Below, piece by piece: positions 20,413 to 39,755 of a DNA stretch of 64,000 bases; the stretch's first letter is position 1; each line of letters begins with the position of its first letter. This DNA is from Candidatus Eiseniibacteriota bacterium (lineage in GTDB: Bacteria; Eisenbacteria; RBG-16-71-46; CAIMUX01; WJJG01), in the NCBI GenBank assembly GCA_023129715.1, contig JAGMBO010000031.1, forward strand, positions 62,001 to 126,000, given 5' to 3'. A model generated the notes under the pieces. The model ran no database searches. It was given only the letters and a program-made list of their open reading frames with translations, and had not been told where the DNA came from. The translations under genes were made by a program, and so were the position numbers.

Positions 20413-21867
20413 ATGGCCGTGGACGTGAGCACACTCGCCTTCGCCACCGGCGTCATTGCCGGGATGATCTATTACATGAACGGCTGGGGGCCGCTTCCCG
20501 GCCTGCGCGGCGGCAATCCGTTCCATGCCACCCGCGGGTTGGCGACACTGCTCGGGGCGGCCGCGATCAGTTTGCTGCTCGATCGCTTCCTCTATCACAC
20601 CCCCGGCTTCGCCTATTTCACCGGCTATCTCGTCGGCGCGGTCTGCGGTTGGTTCGGACTGCTCGTCATGAGCGCCGGCTTCTACATCATCTGGCGCCTG
20701 GGAACCCGCCGGTCCTCCGCGGGGCCGATATCCGCGATCGCCCTCGCCTGCCACGCCATCCTCGAGGCGTTCTCTCTGTCGACAGCCGATGAGTCGCTCT
20801 CGGTTCCGGCAGCGGGCCAGAGGGGGGCGTCGATCAACGGTCAAGGCCGGTCGCGCAATGGGCTCCACGAGCTCCATGAACGTCTCAAGCGAGAGGACCC
20901 CGCCGCCTATTTGGAACTCGAACGGTTACGGATGGATGGCGATCAGCGCGCTCTGGAGTTGCAGCGCGGAGAGCTGGAGCGCATATGGCAAGAGGTTGTC
21001 CGGGCCCGCGAGGATCCGGTGCGGGCGGCAGAGGAGATGATCCGCTTCAAAGAGGAGTCGATGCAGTCCCTGCGCGACGAGCTCGCCAAGGCCCGGCGGT
21101 TCTACAACCGCGATCAGGACAAGCTGCAGGCTGCCCTGGCGGAATACGATCAACTGCTCGCCAACCAGGAAAGTGTGCATAGCGAGTTGCGGGCGTTGTT
21201 GCTGGACGCCGAGCGGGGGCAGGTGCCGCCCGACGACCTGCTGCGGGTGGTGACCTTCCAGAAGATCGGCCAGTACGAGGATGCCGGTCTGACCCTCGGC
21301 ACATTGGCCGTGGGGGAGGGCCAGATCCTCGTGCGCCAGGGGGCGGTCACCGGGGTCGTTGCCGACGTGCTGGTCAGCTCGGATGACAACTATTTGACGA
21401 TGAGCAGTGGATCCGCCCGTTGCATCCGCGAACAAGGCGGAGAGGAGATTTATGAAGAGGCGCGCTGCCGCATTCCGATGCGCCGCGGGGATGTTGCCAT
21501 CACCGGGCCGGGCACGCTCCCCGCGCGGCGGATCTTTCACGCCGTGGTCCTCGATTTGGACGCCCGCGAAGGACCAAGCGAGGAATGCATTCGTGAGGTC
21601 GTGCGCAATGCGATGCACAAGGCGCGGGAGCTGGGTTACCGGCGCCTCGCCTTTCCCCTCCTGGGGGCCGGGGCGGCGGGGTTTCCCGCGGTAGCCGCAT
21701 TCCACGCGATGTTCACCCAGTTCTGCGAGGAGCTCTCCCGGCAGGAGAGCAGCATTCGCGAGGTGGTCATCTGTCTCGAGGGACGACTTGCCGAGATGGT
21801 CGATGTGCCGGGGATGATCGCCGGGGCGGAAGAGAGCCTGCGCTACGGGTTCCAGCTGCAGCGCTAG
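20413..21867 (+). CDS. Membrane-anchored coiled-coil macro-domain protein
   Basis: 484 residues. Three or four hydrophobic segments lie at about 4-22, 44-62, 66-94 and 102-120. A charged helical stalk (about 150-275, e.g. RFKEESMQSLRDELAKARRF) leads to a C-terminal macro domain (about 300-470). Macro features are LVRQGAVTGVVADVLVSSDD, a GSARCIREQGG loop, GDVAITGPGTLPARRIFHAV and RLAFPLLGAGAAGFP. Macro domains bind ADP-ribose or remove it from targets. The first loop reads VSSDDNYLTM where catalytic MacroD enzymes carry an N-rich motif (NAAN), so binding without hydrolysis is possible. ATG 20413 has GAGG five bases upstream. It shares its stop bases CTAG with the converging anti-sigma gene. 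Confidence 0.78.
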   Translation: MAVDVSTLAFATGVIAGMIYYMNGWGPLPGLRGGNPFHATRGLATLLGAAAISLLLDRFLYHTPGFAYFTGYLVGAVCGWFGLLVMSAGFYIIWRLGTRRSSAGPISAIALACHAILEAFSLSTADESLSVPAAGQRGASINGQGRSRNGLHELHERLKREDPAAYLELERLRMDGDQRALELQRGELERIWQEVVRAREDPVRAAEEMIRFKEESMQSLRDELAKARRFYNRDQDKLQAALAEYDQLLANQESVHSELRALLLDAERGQVPPDDLLRVVTFQKIGQYEDAGLTLGTLAVGEGQILVRQGAVTGVVADVLVSSDDNYLTMSSGSARCIREQGGEEIYEEARCRIPMRRGDVAITGPGTLPARRIFHAVVLDLDAREGPSEECIREVVRNAMHKARELGYRRLAFPLLGAGAAGFPAVAAFHAMFTQFCEELSRQESSIREVVICLEGRLAEMVDVPGMIAGAEESLRYGFQLQR

Positions 21868-28957: not shown

Positions 28958-29066
28958 GGATGCAGGGGTCTTCAACGACGACTGCCCGCCGGCAGAGCAC
29001 CAGGGCTCTGATGTGGATGTCTCCCGCGGGCGAGGCGAGGCGGGCTGAGAGAGAAGGGATCGAGTG

Positions 29067-30389
29067 ATGCAGGAACGTTTCTACGAGATCGCCGATCATA
29101 TCGTTGCCCGGCTCAAGGGCGACGAGGTCGTCATCCTGACCTTTGATGGCGAGGAATCCGACTTCGTGCGCTTCAATCACAATGCCGTGCGCCAGGCGGG
29201 GTCGGTGACGCAGGCAGACCTGGGCATCGATCTCATCCGCGGCCAACGGCATGCCGAGGCGCGGTTGGCGCTGACGGGTGAACGGCAGGGCGACCGTACG
29301 CGCGCGGATGCCTTGGTGGCCGAGCTGCGCGCGCGGCTCGACTTCGTGCCCGAGGATCCGCATCTGCTCTATGCGACCGAGGTGCAGTCGACCGAGAAGA
29401 TCGGCGCCAACGAACTAGCCCCGGCGGATCAAGCCTTGGGGGCGATCCTCGCGGGAGGCGAAGGGTACGACTCGGTCGGCATCCATGCTCAGGGACCGAT
29501 CTACCGCGGATTCGCCAACAGCCTGGGGCAGCGCAATTGGTTGTCGACACATACGTTCAATCTGGACTGGTGCTTCTATTTGCGCGACGACAAGGCGGTC
29601 AAGTCGGACTATGCCGGATTCCGCTGGGATGAAGCTGCTCTGAGCGAGAAGATGAAGAGTGCGGGAGCGCAGCTCGGGCTGTTGGACAAGGAGCCGACGA
29701 CGATCAAGCCGGGCAAGTATCGCGTCTACCTGGCGCCCAAGGCGGTCCAGGAAGTCGTCAGCATCCTCGGCTGGGGCGGCTTCGGGCTCAAGGACCACAA
29801 GGCGAAGATCTCCTCGCTGATCCGCATGACCGAGGGGGACGGCAAGCTCCATGCGGCGATCACGATGCGTGAGAACACCGGTGAGGGCGTCTCTGCGAAC
29901 TTCGACCGGATGGGCTTCGTCAAACCCGATCAAGTCGTCCTGATCGAGAAGGGGTGTTTCAAGGAGCACATGGTCTCACCGCGCTCGGCCAAGGAATACG
30001 GTGTCCCGACGAATGGCGCGGATACGTATGAGTCGCCCTTCTCGTTCGAGATGGATGCGGGCGAGATCCCCACCGCGGAGGCTCTGCAACAGCTTGAGAC
30101 GGGGCTCTACATCAACAATCTCTGGTATCTGAACTACTCCGATCGTCCTGCCTGTCGGATGACCGGAATGACGCGCTTTGCGACCTTCTGGGTCGAGAAG
30201 GGCGAGCTGGTCGGGCCGCTGAACGTGATGCGGTTCGATGAATCGATCTATCGCATGTTCGGCAGCAACCTGATCGGGCTTACCGCCGAGCGGGTGATGA
30301 TCCTGGCCAACGACACCTACGGCCAGCGGGAGGTGGCCAGCTATCGCCTGCCGGGCGCGCTGATCAACGACTTCGAGCTGACGCTGTAG
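29067..30389 (+). CDS. pmbA: TldE/PmbA-type protease partner subunit
   Basis: 440 residues. Same overall fold as TldD, without the HExxxH site: the corresponding region has only VVSILGWGGFGLKDH. Family motifs include FNHNAVRQAG near the N-terminus, MRENTGEGVSANFDRMGF, NNLWYLNYSDRPACRMTGMT and a C-terminal RLPGALINDFELTL. ATG 29067 is chosen over the GTG three bases upstream because AAGGGA then has normal spacing. It pairs with TldD to form the active heterodimer. Confidence 0.9.
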   Translation: MQERFYEIADHIVARLKGDEVVILTFDGEESDFVRFNHNAVRQAGSVTQADLGIDLIRGQRHAEARLALTGERQGDRTRADALVAELRARLDFVPEDPHLLYATEVQSTEKIGANELAPADQALGAILAGGEGYDSVGIHAQGPIYRGFANSLGQRNWLSTHTFNLDWCFYLRDDKAVKSDYAGFRWDEAALSEKMKSAGAQLGLLDKEPTTIKPGKYRVYLAPKAVQEVVSILGWGGFGLKDHKAKISSLIRMTEGDGKLHAAITMRENTGEGVSANFDRMGFVKPDQVVLIEKGCFKEHMVSPRSAKEYGVPTNGADTYESPFSFEMDAGEIPTAEALQQLETGLYINNLWYLNYSDRPACRMTGMTRFATFWVEKGELVGPLNVMRFDESIYRMFGSNLIGLTAERVMILANDTYGQREVASYRLPGALINDFELTL

Positions 30390-30732
30390 GGGATCGCCCG
30401 TCAGGAATGTCGGTAACTCTGCATATCCGTGCCGTGCCGTCCCTATTCTGACAGCCCGTGCTCTCACCTACGCGAACCATTCATAGTGTCATGGTTCGAA
30501 TACCTTCCACGTAGCAGAGTATTGGCCGGACGCCAGAGGTGCGGCGCGGCTTGCAGCCCACCCCGGTTCTCTCTGGCGCAGGGATGCACAACCGAGTTAT
30601 CCTGTAACAGTTCCCGTGCCCCCGACGATGCCGAATCGGCTCGATTTGTCACCGCTGAAGGACTTGACCGGGTATGGGGGGCTGCAGAGACCGGGGGATC
30701 ACTGAAGCCAAGGGAACCAGTAGTCGGAATCC
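30390..30732. other. Spacer at the left edge of the cassette-like region
   Basis: About 340 bases without a gene. It contains a perfect 8-bp inverted repeat CGAACCAT/ATGGTTCG (30473-30480 and 30491-30498, loop of ten), without a T-run. Composition is more AT-rich than the preceding genes. No attI-like or integrase sequence was recognised. Confidence 0.4.
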
Positions 30733-31401
30733 ATGGAAAAGACCAAAGACAATCGCAGCTGGGAGGCCTACTGGAGTGGTGATCACGACCATTCCTGGTG
30801 GAAGCGTCCTGACCCGCACGTCCTGGAGTTCATTTCGACACAATCCCCTGAGCGACTGCCGCACGTGCTCGACCTCGGGTCCGGATTAGGACGCCATGCG
30901 ATTGCCTTCGCACAGGCTGGATTCCTGGTGAGTGCGACAGACGCCTCGGAAAGCGCCGTTTCCCATCGGCGGAAATGGGCAGCCGACCTGTCGCTGAGAA
31001 TTCCAACCCAGGTATGTGATGTTCTCGGCGACTCATTCCCAGACGGGAGCTTCGATCTCGTATTGAGCTACAACGTGATTTACCATGGCTCCCGAAACCT
31101 GTTTGCCGCTGTGATAGATCATGTGCACGCTCTCTTGAGGACGGGTGGCCTGTTCTACTTCACCCGCCCCACTCGAGCGGATGGGAAGTATGGCTTCGGA
31201 GAAGAGGTCGCTCTCCACACGTATCATTGCGAGAGATCCATTACTCCGGGAGGCATCCATTACTTCGCGGATAAGGCGGACCTCGAGGATTTCCTCTCTG
31301 GGTTTCGCCGACTCTCGATGGAGAAAGAGGAAGCCTACTGGAGCAACAGAGGGGTGCAGCAGTTCTATTCGACCTGCCACGTACTCGCGGAAACAGCGTG
31401 A
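30733..31401 (+). CDS. SAM-dependent class I methyltransferase
   Basis: 222 residues. Motif I is VLDLGSGLGRHAIAFA (about residue 45), an acidic motif II follows (VSATDASESAV), then FDLVLSYNVIYHG and LLRTGGLFYFTRPT, in the order of class I small-molecule methyltransferases (ubiE/tellurite-resistance-like). The Shine-Dalgarno is weak (CGGA four bases before ATG). It is the first of six plus-strand genes with unrelated functions, and an attC-like hairpin follows 15 bases after its stop. The substrate is unknown. Confidence 0.85.
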   Translation: MEKTKDNRSWEAYWSGDHDHSWWKRPDPHVLEFISTQSPERLPHVLDLGSGLGRHAIAFAQAGFLVSATDASESAVSHRRKWAADLSLRIPTQVCDVLGDSFPDGSFDLVLSYNVIYHGSRNLFAAVIDHVHALLRTGGLFYFTRPTRADGKYGFGEEVALHTYHCERSITPGGIHYFADKADLEDFLSGFRRLSMEKEEAYWSNRGVQQFYSTCHVLAETA

Positions 31402-31415
31402 CACTGAGGAGAGGA

Positions 31416-31502
31416 TCTCAACAATTGCATAAAGACGGACGTGGGTTTCGCTGCGCTCCGCTCGCGCGGCTTGTGGATCACGCCATGTGCAGATTGCAGG
31501 TC
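31416..31502 (+). repeat. attC-like integron recombination site (candidate 1)
   Basis: Begins TCTCAAC (R''-like). Left-arm segments CAATTGCA (31422-31429) and GGACGTG (31437-31443) pair with TGCAGATTG (31488-31496) and CACGCC (31479-31484). Two unpaired (extrahelical) bases result, as in attC. The outer right box (GCAGGTC) departs from GTTRRRY. It lies directly between two plus-strand genes. Confidence 0.4.
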
Positions 31503-31509
31503 ACCTAAA

Positions 31510-32031
31510 ATGGAAACACGAATGACTATAGAGAGAACAGTAGCCAGTATCTTTCACCTAACAGATCAAAACTGGATGAAACACTCTAACCCAGTAAGTG
31601 TATGGACAAGGTATTCAGTACTCCCCATAATTGTGATAGCCTTCTGGAGCAGAATGTGGATTGGTTGGTGGTGTTTGGCGCCTGGAATAGTATCAGTGCT
31701 CTGGATGTTTCTTAATCCCGTTTTCTTTAAGAAACCAAGATCAACCAAGAACTGGGCTTCCAAAGCAGTATTGGGTGAGAGAGTGTTTCTGAATCGAGAC
31801 AAGGTAAAGATACCTGAAAAGCACGACATTCCTTTGCATGGCATTCTCAATACCCTATCTTCACTAGGTATGATCTTGGCAATCTGGGCGATTGTATACT
31901 ATTCCGTTTGGGGAGCTATTCTGGGTGTTGCGCTGGCCTACATCGGGAAAAGTTGGTATTTGGACCGAATGGTTTGGCTATATGAGGATATGAAACATGA
32001 TAATGAAGTATACGAGAGCTGGGAGTATTGA
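31510..32031 (+). CDS. DUF6653-like small integral membrane protein
   Basis: 173 residues. It resembles what I know as the DUF6653 family: FHLTDQNWMKHSNPVSVWTR at the start, WSRMWIGWWCLAPG, LNPVFFKKPRSTKNWASKAV, LGERVFLNR and a closing SWYLDRMVWLYEDMKHDNEV. Two hydrophobic hairpins are at about 33-70 and 115-150. Function is unknown. Base composition is clearly AT-richer than the flanking chromosome, which points to acquisition. Several starts are possible; ATG 31510 follows the attC-like site by seven bases. Confidence 0.75.
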   Translation: METRMTIERTVASIFHLTDQNWMKHSNPVSVWTRYSVLPIIVIAFWSRMWIGWWCLAPGIVSVLWMFLNPVFFKKPRSTKNWASKAVLGERVFLNRDKVKIPEKHDIPLHGILNTLSSLGMILAIWAIVYYSVWGAILGVALAYIGKSWYLDRMVWLYEDMKHDNEVYESWEY

Positions 32032-32046
32032 ACAAATAGTAGGAAC

Positions 32047-32101
32047 ACATAACAGAAGTAGGCAGGGGACGCTAATGGGGCCGGTGATCCTGGCGTTGAC
32101 A
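32047..32101 (+). repeat. Weak attC-like remnant (candidate 2)
   Basis: ACATAAC at the left and GTTGACA at the right resemble the R'' and R' core sites. They enclose AGGCAGGGG and GATCCTGGC, which pair only over CAGG. At 55 bases it is at the short limit of known sites. Reported only because of its position between cassette-like genes. Confidence 0.2.
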
Positions 32102-32142
32102 AGAAGCCGTGTGCCCGGTGAGCAAACATCAGGAATTGACGG

Positions 32143-33210
32143 ATGACTGGAGTCAACGAACTGCAGCAGTACTTCCAGGCACTTGAGGAAGAAGGGCGAT
32201 TCTCTGGGGTCGTACTGATCACTCAAGGCGATTCGCAACTATACGGTGGTGCTTACGGATACGCCAGTCGCTCCTGGAAGATCCGAAATACACTCGATAC
32301 GTGCTTTGACACCGCATCCATCACAAAGCTATTCACGGCTGTGGCGACCCTCCAATTGATTGATCAGAAACGCCTCGCTTTCGATACAGGGGTGATTGAT
32401 TTCCTGAAACTTGAGGGGACAACGATTTCCAAGGGCGTAACCGTCTCTCACTTGCTGACTCATAGCTCGGGCATAGGTGACGACGCCGATGAAGAGGCCG
32501 GAGAAAGTTACGAGGAGTTGTGGAAGACCAAACCCAACTACTCGATCAGGGAGACGGCTGATTTCCTACCTCAGTTTATCCATAAGCCGCCCAACTTCCC
32601 GCCGGGCGAAGGCTGCCGCTATTGCAATTGCGGGTATGTCTTGCTGGGTTTGCTGATTGAAACTGCCAGCGGGTTGAAGTATCGCGACTACGTCCGGCAG
32701 AACATCATTACCCAAGCCGGGATGATCCACTCGGAGTTCCTCCGCATGGATCAGGTGCATGAAAACGTTGCCGAAGGCAACGATCCCCTACGAGATAACA
32801 CAGGCCAGATCATCGGATGGAAAAAGAATATCTACTCGTTCCCTCCAATTGGCTCACCGGATGGCGGCGCGTATGTGACCGCAAGCGATCTTGATCGCTT
32901 TCTCCGGGCGGTGAAAGCGGGCGAATTGCTTTCACCCAAGCTGACGGAAGCATTCTTCACGCCCCAAGTGCATCATAGTGCGATGGAGGGTGGAACGCAG
33001 CGATACGGCTACGGCCTATGGTTCTTGGTGGACCCAGCCAATCAAGTCATCTTCTGCCAGAAAGAAGGGACCAATGCGGGCGTAAGTGGGCTCATTCGCC
33101 ATTTTCCCAAAGACGATACGAATATAGTCATCCTGTCGAATATGGAGGCTGGGGTTTGGGAACCCGTGAGGAAAGTCCACGAACTGGTCATGGCCGGGCA
33201 ATTGGCATAG
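32143..33210 (+). CDS. Cytoplasmic serine beta-lactamase-fold hydrolase
   Basis: 355 residues. The class C/penicillin-binding fold is shown by the SxxK motif DTASITKLFTA (near residue 60), LLTHSSGIGDD, a YCN motif (CRYCNCGYVLLG) where the usual motif is YxN, and GGAYVTASDLDRF. The third box is atypical. No signal peptide is present (MTGVNELQQYFQAL), so it probably acts as an intracellular esterase or amidase, not as a resistance beta-lactamase. The Shine-Dalgarno is weak (AGGA eight bases away). It is one of two such genes in the cassette-like region, and they are not close paralogues. Confidence 0.85.
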   Translation: MTGVNELQQYFQALEEEGRFSGVVLITQGDSQLYGGAYGYASRSWKIRNTLDTCFDTASITKLFTAVATLQLIDQKRLAFDTGVIDFLKLEGTTISKGVTVSHLLTHSSGIGDDADEEAGESYEELWKTKPNYSIRETADFLPQFIHKPPNFPPGEGCRYCNCGYVLLGLLIETASGLKYRDYVRQNIITQAGMIHSEFLRMDQVHENVAEGNDPLRDNTGQIIGWKKNIYSFPPIGSPDGGAYVTASDLDRFLRAVKAGELLSPKLTEAFFTPQVHHSAMEGGTQRYGYGLWFLVDPANQVIFCQKEGTNAGVSGLIRHFPKDDTNIVILSNMEAGVWEPVRKVHELVMAGQLA

Positions 33211-33213
33211 GCT

Positions 33214-33282
33214 GCTCAACCACGCGTTGCAGCCGATTTGCTCCCCCAGCGCTCCGCAGAGGGCAGAACGCGACCGCTAGGG
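33214..33282 (+). repeat. attC-like site (candidate 3)
   Basis: Starts four bases after the stop with GCTCAAC, a perfect RYYYAAC box. CGCGTT followed by GCAGCC pairs with GGCAGAACGCG on the right, with one extrahelical base. The right core box is GCTAGGG, two mismatches from GTTRRRY. Moderate support. Confidence 0.35.
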
Positions 33283-33450
33283 GAGATTCTTGACTACGTC
33301 TCTGTATCATTATGTGCTCAGGCTGGCGACAAATCTCGGCGAGCCCGACCTGCAGGAGACCGGCGAACGGTCAAGAACACGGAGCCATTGGATGAGATGC
33401 CTTGTTGCTCGGTTCACGAGCGGGGTAGATTGGAATAGTGGAGGAGAACC

Positions 33451-34758
33451 TTGAACCGTAGCGCCAGATTCCTAGTACTTGTGCTCGCCGTGGGCGCGGC
33501 GGCAATCCTTCTCGTGACCCTGACGAGTCCGCCAAGCCTATCCCGCACAGAGATCTCTGACAGCCAGCGTGACGAAATCGCGTCGATCATGGAGGTGATG
33601 GCTGCCAATGGCCAGTTCTCGGGCACGGTGCTGGTGTCAGTGGGCGGCGAACCAGTGTATTCCGGTGCCTTCGGTCTGGCCGACATTGAGCGCGGCGTGC
33701 CCAACACTCTGGATACGCAGTTCCGAATCGCCTCCGCCACCAAGCCGTTTACTGCCTTGCTCGTATATCAGCTGGTGGCAGCAGGACAACTGGGACTCGA
33801 CGACAAGCTGTCCGATTGCTTGCCCGAGTATCCCACCGAGAAGGGCGCGAGCATCACCGTGTCCCAGTTGCTGACTCATAGGTCAGGCATCACCGGCGAG
33901 GGACGCATTCCAGAACTGGGGCAGATCGAGCGTCACCGCTGGACACGGGATGAGTTGCTGCAAGAGATCGCCAGTCGCGATCTTGTATTCGCCCCCAGTA
34001 CGCGTTACGAGTACAGCAATTACGGCTATTTCCTGCTGGGCTTGGTCATTGAACGCGCCGGCGGCGCCAGCTACGCTGATCAACTGCAGCATCGGATCTG
34101 CGGACCGGCCCGCATGACCCATACCCGAGGCGACGACAACGACGCTATCATACCTGGCCGAGCCCTGGGCTACCACTTCGACTACTTCGCCGGTCCAGAG
34201 AACTCCCCCTACCTGGACATGAGCTTCGTCTTCGCGTACGGACACCTGCTCTCGACCGTCCCTGACCTGCATCGCTTCACCCTGGCCCTCGACAATCCGG
34301 CCGTGCTCCCTCCGGACTTCCGCGAGATGTTCTTCAACAAGTGCGGATGGACGGTGCAGAGCACACCGGTTGGACAGGGCGGCCAAAGGATCCGCGGGAA
34401 CTACCTGTGCGGCAGCATCAACGGGTTCGCCAGTCACATCCTTCGCATAGAGAAGGACGGCATCTTCATCGCGCTGCTGAAGAACATGAAGGAGCCCGGC
34501 GCTCAGATCGTCGTGAAATGGCCCGCGTACGTTACCTCGCGGATCCTGGCCGTTATCTACGGCGAAGCATATGAGGTTCCTAGAAAGTCGGCGGCGTTCG
34601 CCGTTTTCGAGATGATCCGAGATCATGGGCCCGAAGCGGGTCGGCGAAAGTACGCCGAAGTGGTCATTGGGAAGGATCCCGCCTACTACGTTGAAGAAGA
34701 TGAATTCCACCGCTTGGCGGAAGTGCTGCCCGCAGTCACTGACGCAACCGGTCGCTGA
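33451..34758 (+). CDS. Exported serine beta-lactamase-fold protein (TTG start)
   Basis: 435 residues. An N-terminal anchor (FLVLVLAVGAAAILLVTLT) indicates export. Catalytic motifs are IASATKPFTA (SxxK), LLTHRSGITGEG and YEYSNYGYFLLG (YxN). The C-terminal third (about 340-435) lies outside the standard fold and contains FASHILRIEKDGIFIALLKN. The start is TTG 33451, with GGAGG six bases before it; no ATG or GTG with a better signal exists. It is probably a periplasmic esterase or D-Ala-D-Ala-type peptidase. The strongest attC-like site of the region follows 14 bases after the stop. Confidence 0.85.
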   Translation: MNRSARFLVLVLAVGAAAILLVTLTSPPSLSRTEISDSQRDEIASIMEVMAANGQFSGTVLVSVGGEPVYSGAFGLADIERGVPNTLDTQFRIASATKPFTALLVYQLVAAGQLGLDDKLSDCLPEYPTEKGASITVSQLLTHRSGITGEGRIPELGQIERHRWTRDELLQEIASRDLVFAPSTRYEYSNYGYFLLGLVIERAGGASYADQLQHRICGPARMTHTRGDDNDAIIPGRALGYHFDYFAGPENSPYLDMSFVFAYGHLLSTVPDLHRFTLALDNPAVLPPDFREMFFNKCGWTVQSTPVGQGGQRIRGNYLCGSINGFASHILRIEKDGIFIALLKNMKEPGAQIVVKWPAYVTSRILAVIYGEAYEVPRKSAAFAVFEMIRDHGPEAGRRKYAEVVIGKDPAYYVEEDEFHRLAEVLPAVTDATGR

Positions 34759-34772
34759 GGGTCACGGTGGCC

Positions 34773-34888
34773 GCCTAACACTGGATGGAGCGGACGGGGG
34801 CTGGCATCCCCGACTGGCACGCGCCTGGCTTGAGCCAATCGCGCGCCAGTTCAGCGGCAGCGGCCCGCCGCTCATCCTTGCGCTAGAC
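34773..34888 (+). repeat. attC-like integron recombination site (candidate 4, strongest)
   Basis: R'' box GCCTAAC (34773-34779, perfect RYYYAAC) and R' box GCTAGAC (34882-34888, one mismatch to GTTRRRY). The arms pair over most of 24 positions: GCCGCCTAACAC with GCGCTAGACGGC, then GGATG/CATCC and AGCGG/CCGCT. Two single unpaired bases lie on the left arm, as in attC. The centre forms further hairpins (CTGG..CGCG / CGCG..CCAG and GGCTTGAGCC). Confidence 0.6.
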
Positions 34889-34918
34889 GGCGAGACCAAG
34901 CAAAGGAGCCAGAGGGAG

Positions 34919-35812
34919 ATGAACAGTCAGCAACCAGTGCGTGTTCTGGTGGCCGGGGCAACCGGGACTCTTGGCAGAGCACTGATTCCTGTTCTAAGCA
35001 ACCGTGGGAGAGAGGTCGTAGCTCTCGCCAGACCTGCCAGCCAAGGGCGACTAGAATCGCTATCAGGACACATCAAAGAAGTAGTGACCGCGGAGGTGAC
35101 TGAACCCGACATCCCTGCCAGCATATTTGAGGGAGTGCATTCAGTCATTTCGTCTATCGGGATCACACGTCAGCGAGATGGACTTTCCTATGATGATGTC
35201 GATTTTGGGGGAAACCTGAATCTGCTGCGAGCAGCTGAACAGAGCGGAGTTCAGCGTTTTGTCTATGTGTCGGTCGTAGGGGTGGATCAAGAGGTGAACG
35301 TCCCGGGGTTGAAAGCGAAGCGCCGCTTTGAGGAAGTTCTGGTCGACTCCACCTTGGAGTGGCAGATCGTTCGACCGAGTGGATTTTTCACCGATATAGC
35401 GGATTTCTTGGCGATGGCCCGGAGGGGAACCGTTCATCTGTTTGGAAATGGTCGCAGCAGGATCTCGCCTATACATCCGACGGACCTTTCCGAAGCTATT
35501 GTGGACCGGCTCGAAGCCAAGCCCCGGACGATTGTCTCCGTTGGTGGTCCGGCTGATTTCACATGGGACGAGATCGCGGAACTATGTTGCCGGGTTACGG
35601 GGAGGCGTTGTCGCATTCGGCACTGGCCGGAGTCGTTATTGCAATTGGCGTTAGCGATAACACGCGTATTGTCGCGGCCAACGTACGGAACACTCAGCTT
35701 TCTGGTGCACGTAATGACCAGTGACACCACGGCCCGCAATTACGGTTCCCGTGGCCTGGAGGCGTTCCTGAAGGCCCAACAGGAGGCCGACCAACAAGTG
35801 CATACAGACTGA
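34919..35812 (+). CDS. NAD(P)-binding NmrA-like oxidoreductase
   Basis: 297 residues. The Rossmann motif VLVAGATGTLGRALIPVL is at the N-terminus, and SIGITRQRDG, YVSVVGVDQEVNVPG and VRPSGFFTDIADFLAMARR follow in the order of atypical SDR (NmrA/complex I subunit-like) proteins. These sense or reduce with NAD(P)H; there is no complete YxxxK site. The C-terminal end (ALAITRVLSRPTYGTLSFLV) may touch the membrane. ATG 34919 follows the attC-like site by 30 bases, with AAAGGAG ten bases before it. Confidence 0.82.
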   Translation: MNSQQPVRVLVAGATGTLGRALIPVLSNRGREVVALARPASQGRLESLSGHIKEVVTAEVTEPDIPASIFEGVHSVISSIGITRQRDGLSYDDVDFGGNLNLLRAAEQSGVQRFVYVSVVGVDQEVNVPGLKAKRRFEEVLVDSTLEWQIVRPSGFFTDIADFLAMARRGTVHLFGNGRSRISPIHPTDLSEAIVDRLEAKPRTIVSVGGPADFTWDEIAELCCRVTGRRCRIRHWPESLLQLALAITRVLSRPTYGTLSFLVHVMTSDTTARNYGSRGLEAFLKAQQEADQQVHTD

Positions 35813-36007
35813 CGGATGTGGCAAAGCCTGTCATTCTGCCATAGTCTGGACGGGGCCCTCGCTCGGCAACAGCGCCGAGACGACACAGTCTGACGAGTGA
35901 GTGGAGCAGACGAGAGGGCGTGGCCATCACCCACCGACCAAACAGTTTGATGTTCACAAGTCCTCGCGGATGTTGGGAAATCGTATTTGACGGGAGGTAC
36001 TCCGGGC

Positions 36008-36427
36008 ATGGCTCAAACGGCAGGCGATCATCAAGACATCGAGGTTTCAGGACCTGCTCCGTACGCGCGTGTCTACGCTGATTCCGATGGCGCGACGCAC
36101 TTCTCCGACGAGACGTTGTCGTTCCAACTCGTTGACTATGCGCCTCCAGCTCCCCCGATCTCGGTCTCCGAAGTCTTCGGGGCCGAGAACGTCAGTTTCA
36201 TATCGAGCCCAGCGGGGTGGGACGGTGACTGGCATCCGGCCCCTCGTCGGCAGTTCATCCTGGTGCTTGTGGGGGAGCTTGAGGTAGAAGTGTCGGATGG
36301 TGAGGTGCGGCGCTTCGGTCCGGGGTCCTTGTGCCTTGTGGAAGATACGGCGGGCAAGGGGCACGCTTCCCGAGTCGTCAGTTCTGACAGGGGGCTGGCG
36401 GCTGCTATCCCGCTGGTCGGCGAGTAG
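36008..36427 (+). CDS. Small cupin-domain protein
   Basis: 139 residues. A single cupin barrel: PAPRRQFILVLVGELEVEVS followed by DGEVRRFGPGSLCLVEDTAGKGH. The usual metal-binding His pair of motif 1 is not obvious, while the H in GKGHAS of motif 2 is present. Such small cupins are frequent in mobile cassettes, and their substrates are generally unknown. GGAGG lies ten bases before ATG 36008. It is the last gene of the same-strand run. Confidence 0.8.
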   Translation: MAQTAGDHQDIEVSGPAPYARVYADSDGATHFSDETLSFQLVDYAPPAPPISVSEVFGAENVSFISSPAGWDGDWHPAPRRQFILVLVGELEVEVSDGEVRRFGPGSLCLVEDTAGKGHASRVVSSDRGLAAAIPLVGE

Positions 36428-36962
36428 TGGACGGTCCAGCTTGTGGGCCAGGTTCCGCGGAGCTCGCTAATCCGCGGTAGGCCCTCCCCGTGGTCAGATA
36501 CTAGAATCGCACCAGGGTTCGCCGTACCCAGTCGTAGCTCTCCGCCCTCGAGGAGACGGCCATTCTCATGGCCATCGAGCCCGCCAGCAGTTGCCTAACC
36601 TATTCCATCATCTCAATCTGGAAGTTGTCCATGATGGTATTCATCCCTCCATCATGAACGGGAACACGCCCTCCGTTCAGGCTCATTCCATATTGGAATC
36701 AGGCTATCCGCCAGGCTCATTTCATGTTGGAAGAGGCTCCCCTTGACGGCGACCGGAGACCGGCGCTATCGTCGTGCCGGTTGGATGTGCGCCCACCTGG
36801 CCGGCAGGCCGTGCCTGCCGGATCGGTACAGACCACGGATCCGCCTTTCGCGGCGGATGTGGTGTTTCCCCCCTGCGGCCCGCAGTGCTCGGAATGCCTC
36901 CTTTGCTACAGTCCTCATGGGGCCGGCACAGCCTCGGCGATGCGTCCAGAGAGGGGGCGCCC
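36428..36962. other. Spacer upstream of the sigma54 activator gene
   Basis: About 535 bases with no supported gene. It has CCATCAT/ATGATGG as a 7-bp inverted repeat (36605-36611 and 36631-36637) and a duplicated palindrome-containing element at 36678-36738. A GCCTAAC heptamer at 36593 has no matching partner. Presumably this is the regulatory region of the activator gene. Confidence 0.5.
36678..36738. promoter_or_regulatory. Duplicated operator-like element
   Basis: Two copies of a 27-28 base element, CAGGCTCATTCCATATTGG...AGGCT at 36678-36705 and CAGGCTCATTTCATGTTGG...AGGCT at 36712-36738, 34 bases apart start to start. The first holds ATTCCA-TAT-TGGAAT, a 6-bp dyad; the second is a weaker version. 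Spacing of about three helical turns suits paired dimeric regulator sites. Confidence 0.5.
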
Positions 36963-39755
36963 ATGCGTGCAGAGGCCTCGGTTCCCTGGATCGGCCGGCA
37001 GGTCGTCATTGAGCGGGCACTGGCCGCCGGCTCACTCTCACTGGCGTGGCGGGAGAGCGAGCGTCTGCGGCGGCAGATCCGTCGCGAGGCGCCGGTGGAC
37101 CGCAATCGCGCTGTCGAGCATTGCATTTTGCGAACCACGATCTTGCTGCTGCGCATCCGAGAGAATCTGGAAGAGGTTGAACACCGCTCCGGCGACGACG
37201 GCCTGTACTCGCCGGCGAGCATTGGCATGCAGAACGCCGCCCGGCCGATCCACGATTCATCCATGCAAGAAGTCGAGCGCAATCTCGATGTGCTCCGAAC
37301 ATACCGATCACTTGTCCAGCCCGGCCGAGTCGTCAGGCTACACATCGTTTGGTTGGAGATGATTCACTCGGCGGTGCAGGGCCGGGACCACGCCGTCATC
37401 GACCATCTTGTCCGTATCGAAGCGGTGGGACCTGATACGGCTGCCGAAGTGAGGTCTGCTGCCGGTATGGAGGCGGAGGCTGACGCGGAGCCAGGAGGTA
37501 AGCCGGGAGGCAAGCCATGGGACACGCCGGGAAGCAAGGCAGGAGAGACGCATGATGCCCGGACCGGCGTGCTACTCGCCAGGCTCTATCTCTGTGGGGG
37601 CGAGGCGGCCGTTCGGCTGCGCGAGTGGGGTTGCGCGGAGGCGTGGCTGCGGGCGGCGATTGCCTGGGCCCGGCGGTGTGCGGCGCAAGGCGAGACGATG
37701 GCGGCACTCGAGGGGGCAGCCTTCCGTGCGCTCGGCCGATTGGAGGTCGAGCGTGGGCGTCTGACCGAGGCGCTCGATCACCTGCAGATCGCCGATCAGA
37801 TCCAAGCGCATCACGGTTTCCTGCGGGCCTCGCTCGAGACACGCGTGGCGATCGCGCGACTCTGGATACGGCAGGGGTTTCTGGGGCAAGCGGAGCGCCG
37901 CCTGCTGCGCCTGCGCCGGGATGCGGCCAGCCTGGGCTGCCCGCGGATCGAGGTGCAATTGGCTCTGTACCTCTGCACGGTCAGGCTGCTTCTCGGTTCC
38001 ACGGATTTGGCGCGCAAGGACGCCGTGCAGGCGCTGAGGGGCGCGCGCGAGCATGGCTGGCCCGCGGAGCTCATCCGCGCGTTGCTCGCCATGGTCGCCG
38101 TCCACATCCAAGCCGGATCATCCGCCCACCCTGCGCGAGATGCGCGCATTGCGCGTCTGCTCTCCCGCGCCCGCCGTCTCTTGAAGCGTATCGAGCAGTC
38201 GGGCATCCAGGCTCCCGGCTTGGCTGCCGGCATCTCCTGGAGTGAGGCGCTTCGGCTCTTGGCGCGTGGAGATATCGGCGTGGCCGAGGACAGTGTGCGA
38301 GATCTGCTGGCCCGCGCCAGCGCGCTGCGCGCAGGGGGCACCGGGGACGACTCGGTGGTCTCTGCGCACCGCCTTCTGGGAGAGATCCTGCTCACCGAGG
38401 GGCGCTGGGAAGAGGCTGCGGAGACCTTGCAGCGCAGCCTCGAGATGTCCTTGCGCCTCGGGGATCGGGTCGAACAGGGGCTGAGTGAGATCGCCCTAGC
38501 CAAGGCGATCTGCGCCGATCCGTCGAAGAAGGAGACGCGCGGGGCCGCGCAGCGCCTACTCTCGCGGGCGGGAGCGCGGATCCTGCGGGCGGGCATTCCA
38601 CGCGAGCGGCTGGACTTGGTCGGGGCCGGTCCCGCGCTGATTCGCAGTCGCGCGCCGCTGGCGCGTCCCGGGGGAGCGCACGCCCCGCGACCCAAGGCCG
38701 ACGAAGCGCGGGGCGCGTCTCGCCCGGCTTGGGATTGGGAGAGGCGCAAAGCGGGACCCGAGTGCTGGAGCTGCTTCGGCATCATCACCCGGAGTCCCGA
38801 TGTCCATGCCGAGATGCTCCATCTATCCTGCGTGGCCAAGAGCGAGTTGCCCGTGTTGATCCATGGCGAGACCGGCTCGGGCAAGGAACTCGTGGCAGCC
38901 GCGCTGCACGAGATGAGTGGACGTGCGGGGCGTCTGGTCGGGTTCAATGCCGCGACGGCCCGCAACGAACTCCTCGAGGCGGAGCTCTTCGGGCATCGCA
39001 AGGGGGCGTTCACCGGCGCCCATCGCGATCGTCCCGGCCTCATCGCCCAGGCCGAGGGGGGGACGCTCTTTCTCGACGAGGTGGCCGACCTGCATCCATC
39101 GGCGCAGGCTGCATTGCTGCGCTTCCTCGACACCGGAGAAGTACGCGCCGTCGGGTCGGACAGGATCGAGCGGGCGAGCGTGCGGATCGTCGCCGCCAGC
39201 CTGCGTTCACTGCGGCGCGAGGTGGCGCGCGGCCGTTTTCGCCAGGACCTCTTCTTTCGCCTGGCGGGCGCCGAGATCCGCCTGCCCCCCCTGCGCGAGC
39301 GGCCGGAGGACCTGCTGCCCCTGCTGCGGCACTTCGCCGCCCGCCGCCATGTTCCTCCGGCGGCGCTGGAGGAGCTGCTGGCGGATGGAATGGAGGCGCG
39401 ATTGCGGGCCTACGGCTGGCCCGGGAATGTGCGCCAGCTTGCCCACTGGGTCGATCAGTTGGCTGCGCTCTGGCACAGCCAGGTTGCTCCGCGAGAGGTT
39501 CGTCGCCGACTTGGTCGGGTCTTGGGACCGGAGGGTGAGTCCCTGAGCAGGTTTCCGGGGACCGGCCGGACGGCGGAAGGGGGCGCGGCGGCGACGCGCG
39601 AAGACCTGGTCCGGCTCTTGCGGATCCATCGCGGCAACATCTCGGCCGTCGCGCGCGATCTGCACACCTACCGCACGCATGTCTATCGGATGTTGCGCAG
39701 CGCGGGGGTGGACTTGCGTGAGCACCGCAGGCCGGCGGAAGCCCCCCCCGGATGA
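36963..39755 (+). CDS. Sigma54-dependent transcriptional activator with TPR-like N-terminal half
   Basis: 930 residues. The first 600 are alpha-helical TPR-like repeats (for example ALDHLQIADQIQAHHGFLRA, EEAAETLQRSLEMSLRLGD) interrupted by a GGKPGGKP-type linker. An AAA+ domain follows: GETGSGKE (about 634), GAFTGAH (about 680, the sigma54-contact loop), GGTLFLDEVADLHP (Walker B), FRQDLFFRLAGAEIRLPPLRERPEDLLPL split over sensor 1 and 2, and GWPGNVRQL. A Fis-type HTH ends the protein (IHRGNISAVARDLHTYRTHV). The core is complete, so it should activate sigma54 promoters. In place of a receiver or GAF domain it has the TPR array, suggesting control by protein-protein contact. ATG 36963 has GAGGGGG just upstream. 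Target promoters were not found. Confidence 0.9.
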   Translation: MRAEASVPWIGRQVVIERALAAGSLSLAWRESERLRRQIRREAPVDRNRAVEHCILRTTILLLRIRENLEEVEHRSGDDGLYSPASIGMQNAARPIHDSSMQEVERNLDVLRTYRSLVQPGRVVRLHIVWLEMIHSAVQGRDHAVIDHLVRIEAVGPDTAAEVRSAAGMEAEADAEPGGKPGGKPWDTPGSKAGETHDARTGVLLARLYLCGGEAAVRLREWGCAEAWLRAAIAWARRCAAQGETMAALEGAAFRALGRLEVERGRLTEALDHLQIADQIQAHHGFLRASLETRVAIARLWIRQGFLGQAERRLLRLRRDAASLGCPRIEVQLALYLCTVRLLLGSTDLARKDAVQALRGAREHGWPAELIRALLAMVAVHIQAGSSAHPARDARIARLLSRARRLLKRIEQSGIQAPGLAAGISWSEALRLLARGDIGVAEDSVRDLLARASALRAGGTGDDSVVSAHRLLGEILLTEGRWEEAAETLQRSLEMSLRLGDRVEQGLSEIALAKAICADPSKKETRGAAQRLLSRAGARILRAGIPRERLDLVGAGPALIRSRAPLARPGGAHAPRPKADEARGASRPAWDWERRKAGPECWSCFGIITRSPDVHAEMLHLSCVAKSELPVLIHGETGSGKELVAAALHEMSGRAGRLVGFNAATARNELLEAELFGHRKGAFTGAHRDRPGLIAQAEGGTLFLDEVADLHPSAQAALLRFLDTGEVRAVGSDRIERASVRIVAASLRSLRREVARGRFRQDLFFRLAGAEIRLPPLRERPEDLLPLLRHFAARRHVPPAALEELLADGMEARLRAYGWPGNVRQLAHWVDQLAALWHSQVAPREVRRRLGRVLGPEGESLSRFPGTGRTAEGGAAATREDLVRLLRIHRGNISAVARDLHTYRTHVYRMLRSAGVDLREHRRPAEAPPG

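Follow-up and report, generated by a model that had tools for sequence, protein, structure and literature searches.

A probable, partly decayed integron cassette array at one of about eleven dispersed attI-like sites in a Candidatus Eiseniibacteriota genome

We analyzed a stretch of 64,000 nucleotides (hereafter the window) on contig C112 of a Candidatus Eiseniibacteriota genome, in which a block of six genes separates a pmbA/tldD-type gene from the gene of a sigma-54 regulator. We propose, with a probability of roughly 0.78, that this block is a partly decayed integron cassette array, that it starts at an attI-like site carried in about eleven dispersed copies, and that its cassettes were joined by an integrase acting in trans. 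Integrons are bacterial gene-capture platforms with the canonical crossover G^TT. An earlier note on this DNA, made from its letters alone, had already described an integron-like array with no integrase beside it. The core of that description stood, being supported by an attC, an attI-like left end, an intI gene with dozens of attC elsewhere in the genome, and flanking genes that are adjacent in a relative; the idea that the attC recur through the block was not supported, as only one attC was recognisable for six genes. The features of the block and its flanks were as follows.

29064..30389, plus strand: pmbA/tldD-type gene, host gene of the left flank (PF19289; orthologues 49-65% identical in relatives)
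30393..30723, plus strand: attI-like element (about 330 bp) separating pmbA from the methyltransferase gene; a dispersed repeat, whose last base, 30723, is the crossover G
30733..31401, plus strand: SAM-dependent methyltransferase gene, first passenger (PF13649/PF08241)
31510..32031, plus strand: DUF6653 gene, GC 0.43 (PF20358, 175 bits)
32143..33210, plus strand: serine hydrolase / beta-lactamase-fold gene 1 (PF00144)
33451..34758, plus strand: serine hydrolase / beta-lactamase-fold gene 2 (PF00144)
34773..34888, plus strand: attC of 116 nt with the altered crossover triplet G^CT (three covariance models, homology to an attC on C45, fold)
34919..35812, plus strand: NAD(P)-binding / NmrA-like (SDR) gene, possible further cassette (PF13460; best relatives about 31-35% identical)
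35807..35920, plus strand: segment 89% identical to a stretch of C139 (repeat match)
36008..36427, plus strand: cupin-like gene, candidate array member (PF07883 below cutoff, E 1e-4)
36470..36740, minus strand: decayed start of an insertion-sequence transposase gene (82% identical to C159:27158-27428; stops break the frame)
36963..39755, plus strand: sigma-54 activator with a TPR region, host gene of the right flank (PF00158; adjoins pmbA in the relative G003)

The attC at 34773-34888 has paired R''/R' and L''/L' boxes and extrahelical bases, as expected of an integron recombination site. The earlier reading of this space was upheld: the R'' box, GCCTAAC, matches perfectly, there is a single mismatch in the R' box, GCTAGAC (34882-34888), and two bases are extrahelical. 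Scoring by boxes and stem alone ranked the site first in about 104 kb, nearly tied with others, and this scoring was dropped as too weak a test for attC. Covariance models, the check that had been proposed with the first reading, returned a clear match at this place in three versions. Model R1, built from 16 aligned attC of other genomes that were collected by pattern, was run over the 64-kb window on both strands with no filters, and its best match was 34774-34887 on the plus strand (21.3 bits, E 0.009), obtained with no sequence of this genome in the model. With model R2, built from 27 attC of this genome that R1 had found, none of them from the window, 34773-34888 scored 40.2 bits (E 6.7e-8) and was the sole clear match in 64 kb, the next having E 0.15; with model R3, built from 50 other attC of this genome, it scored 43.5 bits (E 2.3e-9). 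The site is also about 80% identical over its full length, variable loop included, to a 116-nt attC at C45:4065-4180, with an alignment score of 121 compared with at most 32 in 200 shuffles, and further relatives were found on C34, C69, and C168. The bottom strands of this site and of the C45 attC both fold into the expected attC hairpin (z -4.1, not equalled by any of 200 shuffles, and z -4.5, respectively). Judged by model scores, homology, and folding, 34773-34888 is a real attC. The second-best R3 match in the window, at 20475-20527 on the minus strand (19.1 bits, E 0.012), is an incomplete attC-like hairpin over a long plus-strand ORF and is probably due to chance.

A search for an intI gene elsewhere in the genome, also proposed earlier, was successful. 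One gene in the genome, on contig C8, exceeded the integron-integrase cutoff (394 bits compared with 265):

G000:C8:253-1836 (L001, L012): integron integrase gene, 527 aa, intact-looking

In an alignment with the solved integron integrase 2a3v, the C8 protein retains all the catalytic residues (R, K, H, R, H, and Y) together with the integron-integrase-specific segment. Its N-terminus is extended by about 200 aa; IntI frames of similar length were observed in G004:C30 (545 aa) and G005:C35 (494 aa). On C109 and C161, two recombinases resembling IntI fell below the integron-integrase cutoff and were set aside. Integrons have been described as carrying one attI, directly beside intI (PMC9668308); no intI lies between pmbA and the sigma-54 regulator gene, and a search of 20 kb around the integrase gene on C8 revealed neither an attC nor an attI-like element. 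Candidate substrates for such an enzyme are plentiful in its own genome, where R1 gave many strong matches of up to 56 bits and R2 recognised 45 attC (E < 0.001) on 23 contigs (L140-L163). Many of these attC have long variable loops, with total lengths of 90-148 nt, and fall into a few families by sequence. One of the 45 attC is on the contig of the window, at the far end (C112:166-311). We infer that the C8 integrase is the enzyme that acts on these sites.

The block also has a left end, which the earlier note did not describe and which is marked by a repeated element. In a BLAST search of the block against other attC-bearing contigs, 30396-30727 proved to be a repeat, and a genome-wide search added further copies, giving about eleven in all, the window copy and about ten more; this total comes from one genome search and local BLAST of selected loci and is possibly under-counted. 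The element is 72-86% identical to clear copies on C127, C165, C46, and C164, all of them long, and on C168, where only the last 170 bp are present. Weaker copies occur on C38, on C111, and at a second place on C165, and those on C72 and C12 were recognised chiefly through their conserved 3' end. Several copies lie deep inside contigs of 77 to 194 kb (C112, C127, C165, C168), so that they are unlikely to be assembly duplicates in this draft genome of 186 contigs. Among the eight best copies, mean pairwise identity was 0.79-0.84 over the last 30 nt and 0.88 over the next two bases (mostly TT), and from the third base onward it was 0.34, which is near chance; the bases there vary like the starts of cassettes. 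The break in similarity thus falls at the canonical integron crossover G^TT. Downstream of eight copies (C127, C165, C168, C46, C38, C111, C72, and C12) an attC follows in the same orientation; none was recognised downstream of the second C165 copy, and the C164 contig ends shortly after its copy. The first cassette after the C164 copy starts with the best-preserved crossover, G^TTAGGC; an insertion sequence apparently interrupts this cassette where the contig ends. A scan of 30380-30760 for a cassette promoter (Pc) of the sigma-70 type found no consensus. A sharp end at the crossover G, cassettes downstream, and no attC fold are the properties expected of attI, and on this comparison of sequences the element may be used as one.

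The element could be a dispersed repeat unrelated to attI and, by coincidence, a good target for the integrase, with cassettes piling up at its end. This is unlikely, although parts of the element also occur alone (on C182, on C37, and in parts of C72 and C164) and no copy was found beside intI. If a repeat had been split by incoming cassettes, the second half of the target would be expected after the arrays, whereas we found nothing common to the copies there, nor any common sequence upstream of the element; moreover, conservation is highest in the last 30 nt, as selection on the crossover end would lead one to expect. For practical purposes, such a repeat differs from an attI only in its origin.

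Under the preferred reading, the genes between the attI-like element and the attC would all have arrived as cassettes. The methyltransferase ATG is 10 nt 3' of the crossover G (30723). The lower GC that the earlier note ascribed to several of the six plus-strand genes in 30733-36427 was borne out: the values are, in order, 0.57, 0.43, 0.53, 0.60, 0.56, and 0.62, an uneven series compared with 0.62-0.69 in the flanking genes, and those of the first four suggest that these passengers have several origins. Two other parts of its description fell away, since two of the six supposedly unrelated genes belong to one family (PF00144, about 34% identical) and several genes have a plausible ribosome-binding site (33451, 34919) where few good ones had been noted. 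Relatives of the DUF6653 gene that are 46-78% identical are spread across unrelated phyla, and this patchy distribution of sequences points to frequent transfer; those at 67-78% identity come from Oleispira, Rhodobacter, Flavobacteriales, Lutibacter, and the archaeon Methanoculleus. The flanks of the relatives in other phyla were searched for attC, and none was recognised. With its ORF ending 14 nt upstream of the attC, hydrolase gene 2 is the safest cassette passenger. A cassette probably once held the SDR gene as well, since the 114-bp segment after this gene (35807-35920) recurs on C139, where the similar sequence lies 58 nt upstream of an attC. An Rfam scan of the 64-kb window gave no match.

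The remaining spaces of the block gave no comparable signal. Weaker or marginal attC had been suggested for three of them, and one is retained as a candidate:

33214..33282, plus strand: candidate decayed attC (rank 2 with R1, 16.0 bits, E 0.17; unlisted by R2; E 1.3 with R3; fold z -0.5)

By these values the candidate does not clearly rise above chance. The space at 31416 was never a covariance match (fold z +1.1), and that at 32047 was matched with R3 only, at E 7.6 (fold z +0.2). Local alignments of 30390-30732, 31402-31509, 32032-32142, 33211-33450, 35813-36007, and 36428-36962 against the attC of the genome all scored within the range of shuffles. As the other spaces are thus unsupported, the genes from the left end up to the attC may represent several cassettes with decayed attC, or fewer and larger cassettes.

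Comparison with relatives places the block as an insertion-sized difference between two neighboring host genes. The genome G003 belongs to the same family, and its tldD, pmbA, and sigma-54 regulator genes are consecutive: about 230 bp separate pmbA from the regulator gene, and the six genes are missing there. In the window, the distance from pmbA to the regulator gene is 6.5 kb; the whole block is absent from G003. Hydrolase gene 2, in the family and order, and the SDR gene, in the relatives searched, have no close intact homologue. Broken fragments of a hydrolase gene 2 homologue, up to 84% identical, were observed at G007:C96:11958-12343 (L172), in another family of the same order; attC were looked for around these fragments, and none was found. 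Relatives in the family and order carry intI genes, some with attC nearby. At three such loci (L092 in G003, L093 in G008, and L098 in G010) the nearest attC shares the strand of intI and follows it downstream, an arrangement opposite to the classical one, and just before the first cassette stand sequences such as GTAGACTTATAG^TTAGGT. The earlier note had named, as a result that would speak against an array, the lack of any attC hit together with a gene order of all six genes conserved in relatives; an attC was found, and the six-gene order is not conserved.

A single cassette, comprising hydrolase gene 2 and its attC, might instead have entered an attG-like chromosomal site, the remaining genes forming an ordinary genomic island acquired by other routes. 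The block has only one clear attC, its GC varies from gene to gene, and a transposase remnant lies at its right end, all of which would suit such a history. However, we consider it distinctly unlikely, because the left border is a conserved element that stands directly before cassettes at eight other loci and ends sharply at the crossover G, because the methyltransferase gene begins right behind this element, and because attG sites, according to the description in PMC12901181, diverge from the classical att sites.

A further proposal, that the element is itself an ORF-less cassette (a promoter cassette, for example) with an attC at its 3' end and always in first position, would account for its ending at G^TT like a cassette; it is very improbable, since none of the attC covariance models reports the element, its 3' ends in six copies fold no better than shuffles (z -0.6 to +1.6), and it is always first and never found inside an array after another attC. 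That the resemblance arose by chance, in a mere run of horizontally acquired genes with no integron, has a negligible probability and is refuted for 34773-34888 by the 40 to 44 bits obtained with models from the other attC of the genome and by the roughly 80% identity, over its full length, to the attC on C45, even if boxes and stem alone gave a near tie and three of the four sites first named were at or near chance level.

We therefore return to the partly decayed array and propose the following history for it. An integron integrase acting in trans would have joined circular cassettes to the attI-like site at the G^TT crossover, which would have produced the order attI-like site, methyltransferase, DUF6653, hydrolase 1, hydrolase 2, attC (34773-34888), and probably at least one more cassette, that of the SDR gene. 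The other attC would since have been lost or have decayed, both crossover triplets would have mutated, and the array, with a transposon remnant at its right end, would now be fixed between pmbA and the sigma-54 regulator gene. The triplets are now G^TC at 30723 and G^CT at 34882, and since both are altered the array is, to judge from its sequence, probably frozen. We counted against the array explanation that a single attC is recognisable among those expected, that both crossover triplets in the window differ from GTT, that neither attC nor attI-like element turned up within the searched 20 kb of C8, and that the genome is a draft of 186 contigs.

Lone attC and clusters that lack an integrase are known (PMC9024848), and CALINs at several loci of one genome have been reported in Xanthomonas (PMC12444791). 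The block shares with CALINs, as defined for IntegronFinder (PMC9024848), attC cassette DNA with no integrase nearby; it differs in having one clear attC, where the IntegronFinder 2 default calls for at least two, and in its attI-like start, which lies outside the CALIN definition. With a sedentary chromosomal integron it has in common a normal attC anatomy, one cassette orientation, the G^TT crossover, an attI-like left end, and an integron-integrase gene in the genome, but here intI is away from the array, the attI-like sites are about eleven and dispersed, and the arrays are short (one to four recognised attC). Insertion of cassettes into non-classical sites termed attG, described by Loot et al. 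(2024) and cited in PMC12901181, likewise takes place in trans at scattered chromosomal places away from intI; the sites described there are divergent from classical att sites, whereas the left border here is a conserved and repeated element of about 330 bp, not a non-conserved secondary site. Our search of open-access papers turned up no description of a single genome with many attI-like sites at a distance from intI.

More broadly, the genome may harbor a distributed integron, in which a single integrase with its gene elsewhere would allow cassettes to enter at any of about eleven dispersed attI-type sites; we advance this tentatively, at slightly less than even odds. The proposal is directly testable, as sequences are available for the sites, the attC, and an integrase. 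An attI-like site combined with an integrase in trans would provide a simple origin for some integrase-less cassette clusters. If the proposal is true, captured genes would be scattered around the chromosome instead of being kept in a single array behind a single promoter, and many attI-like entry points served by a solitary integrase would represent a different organisation of captured genes.
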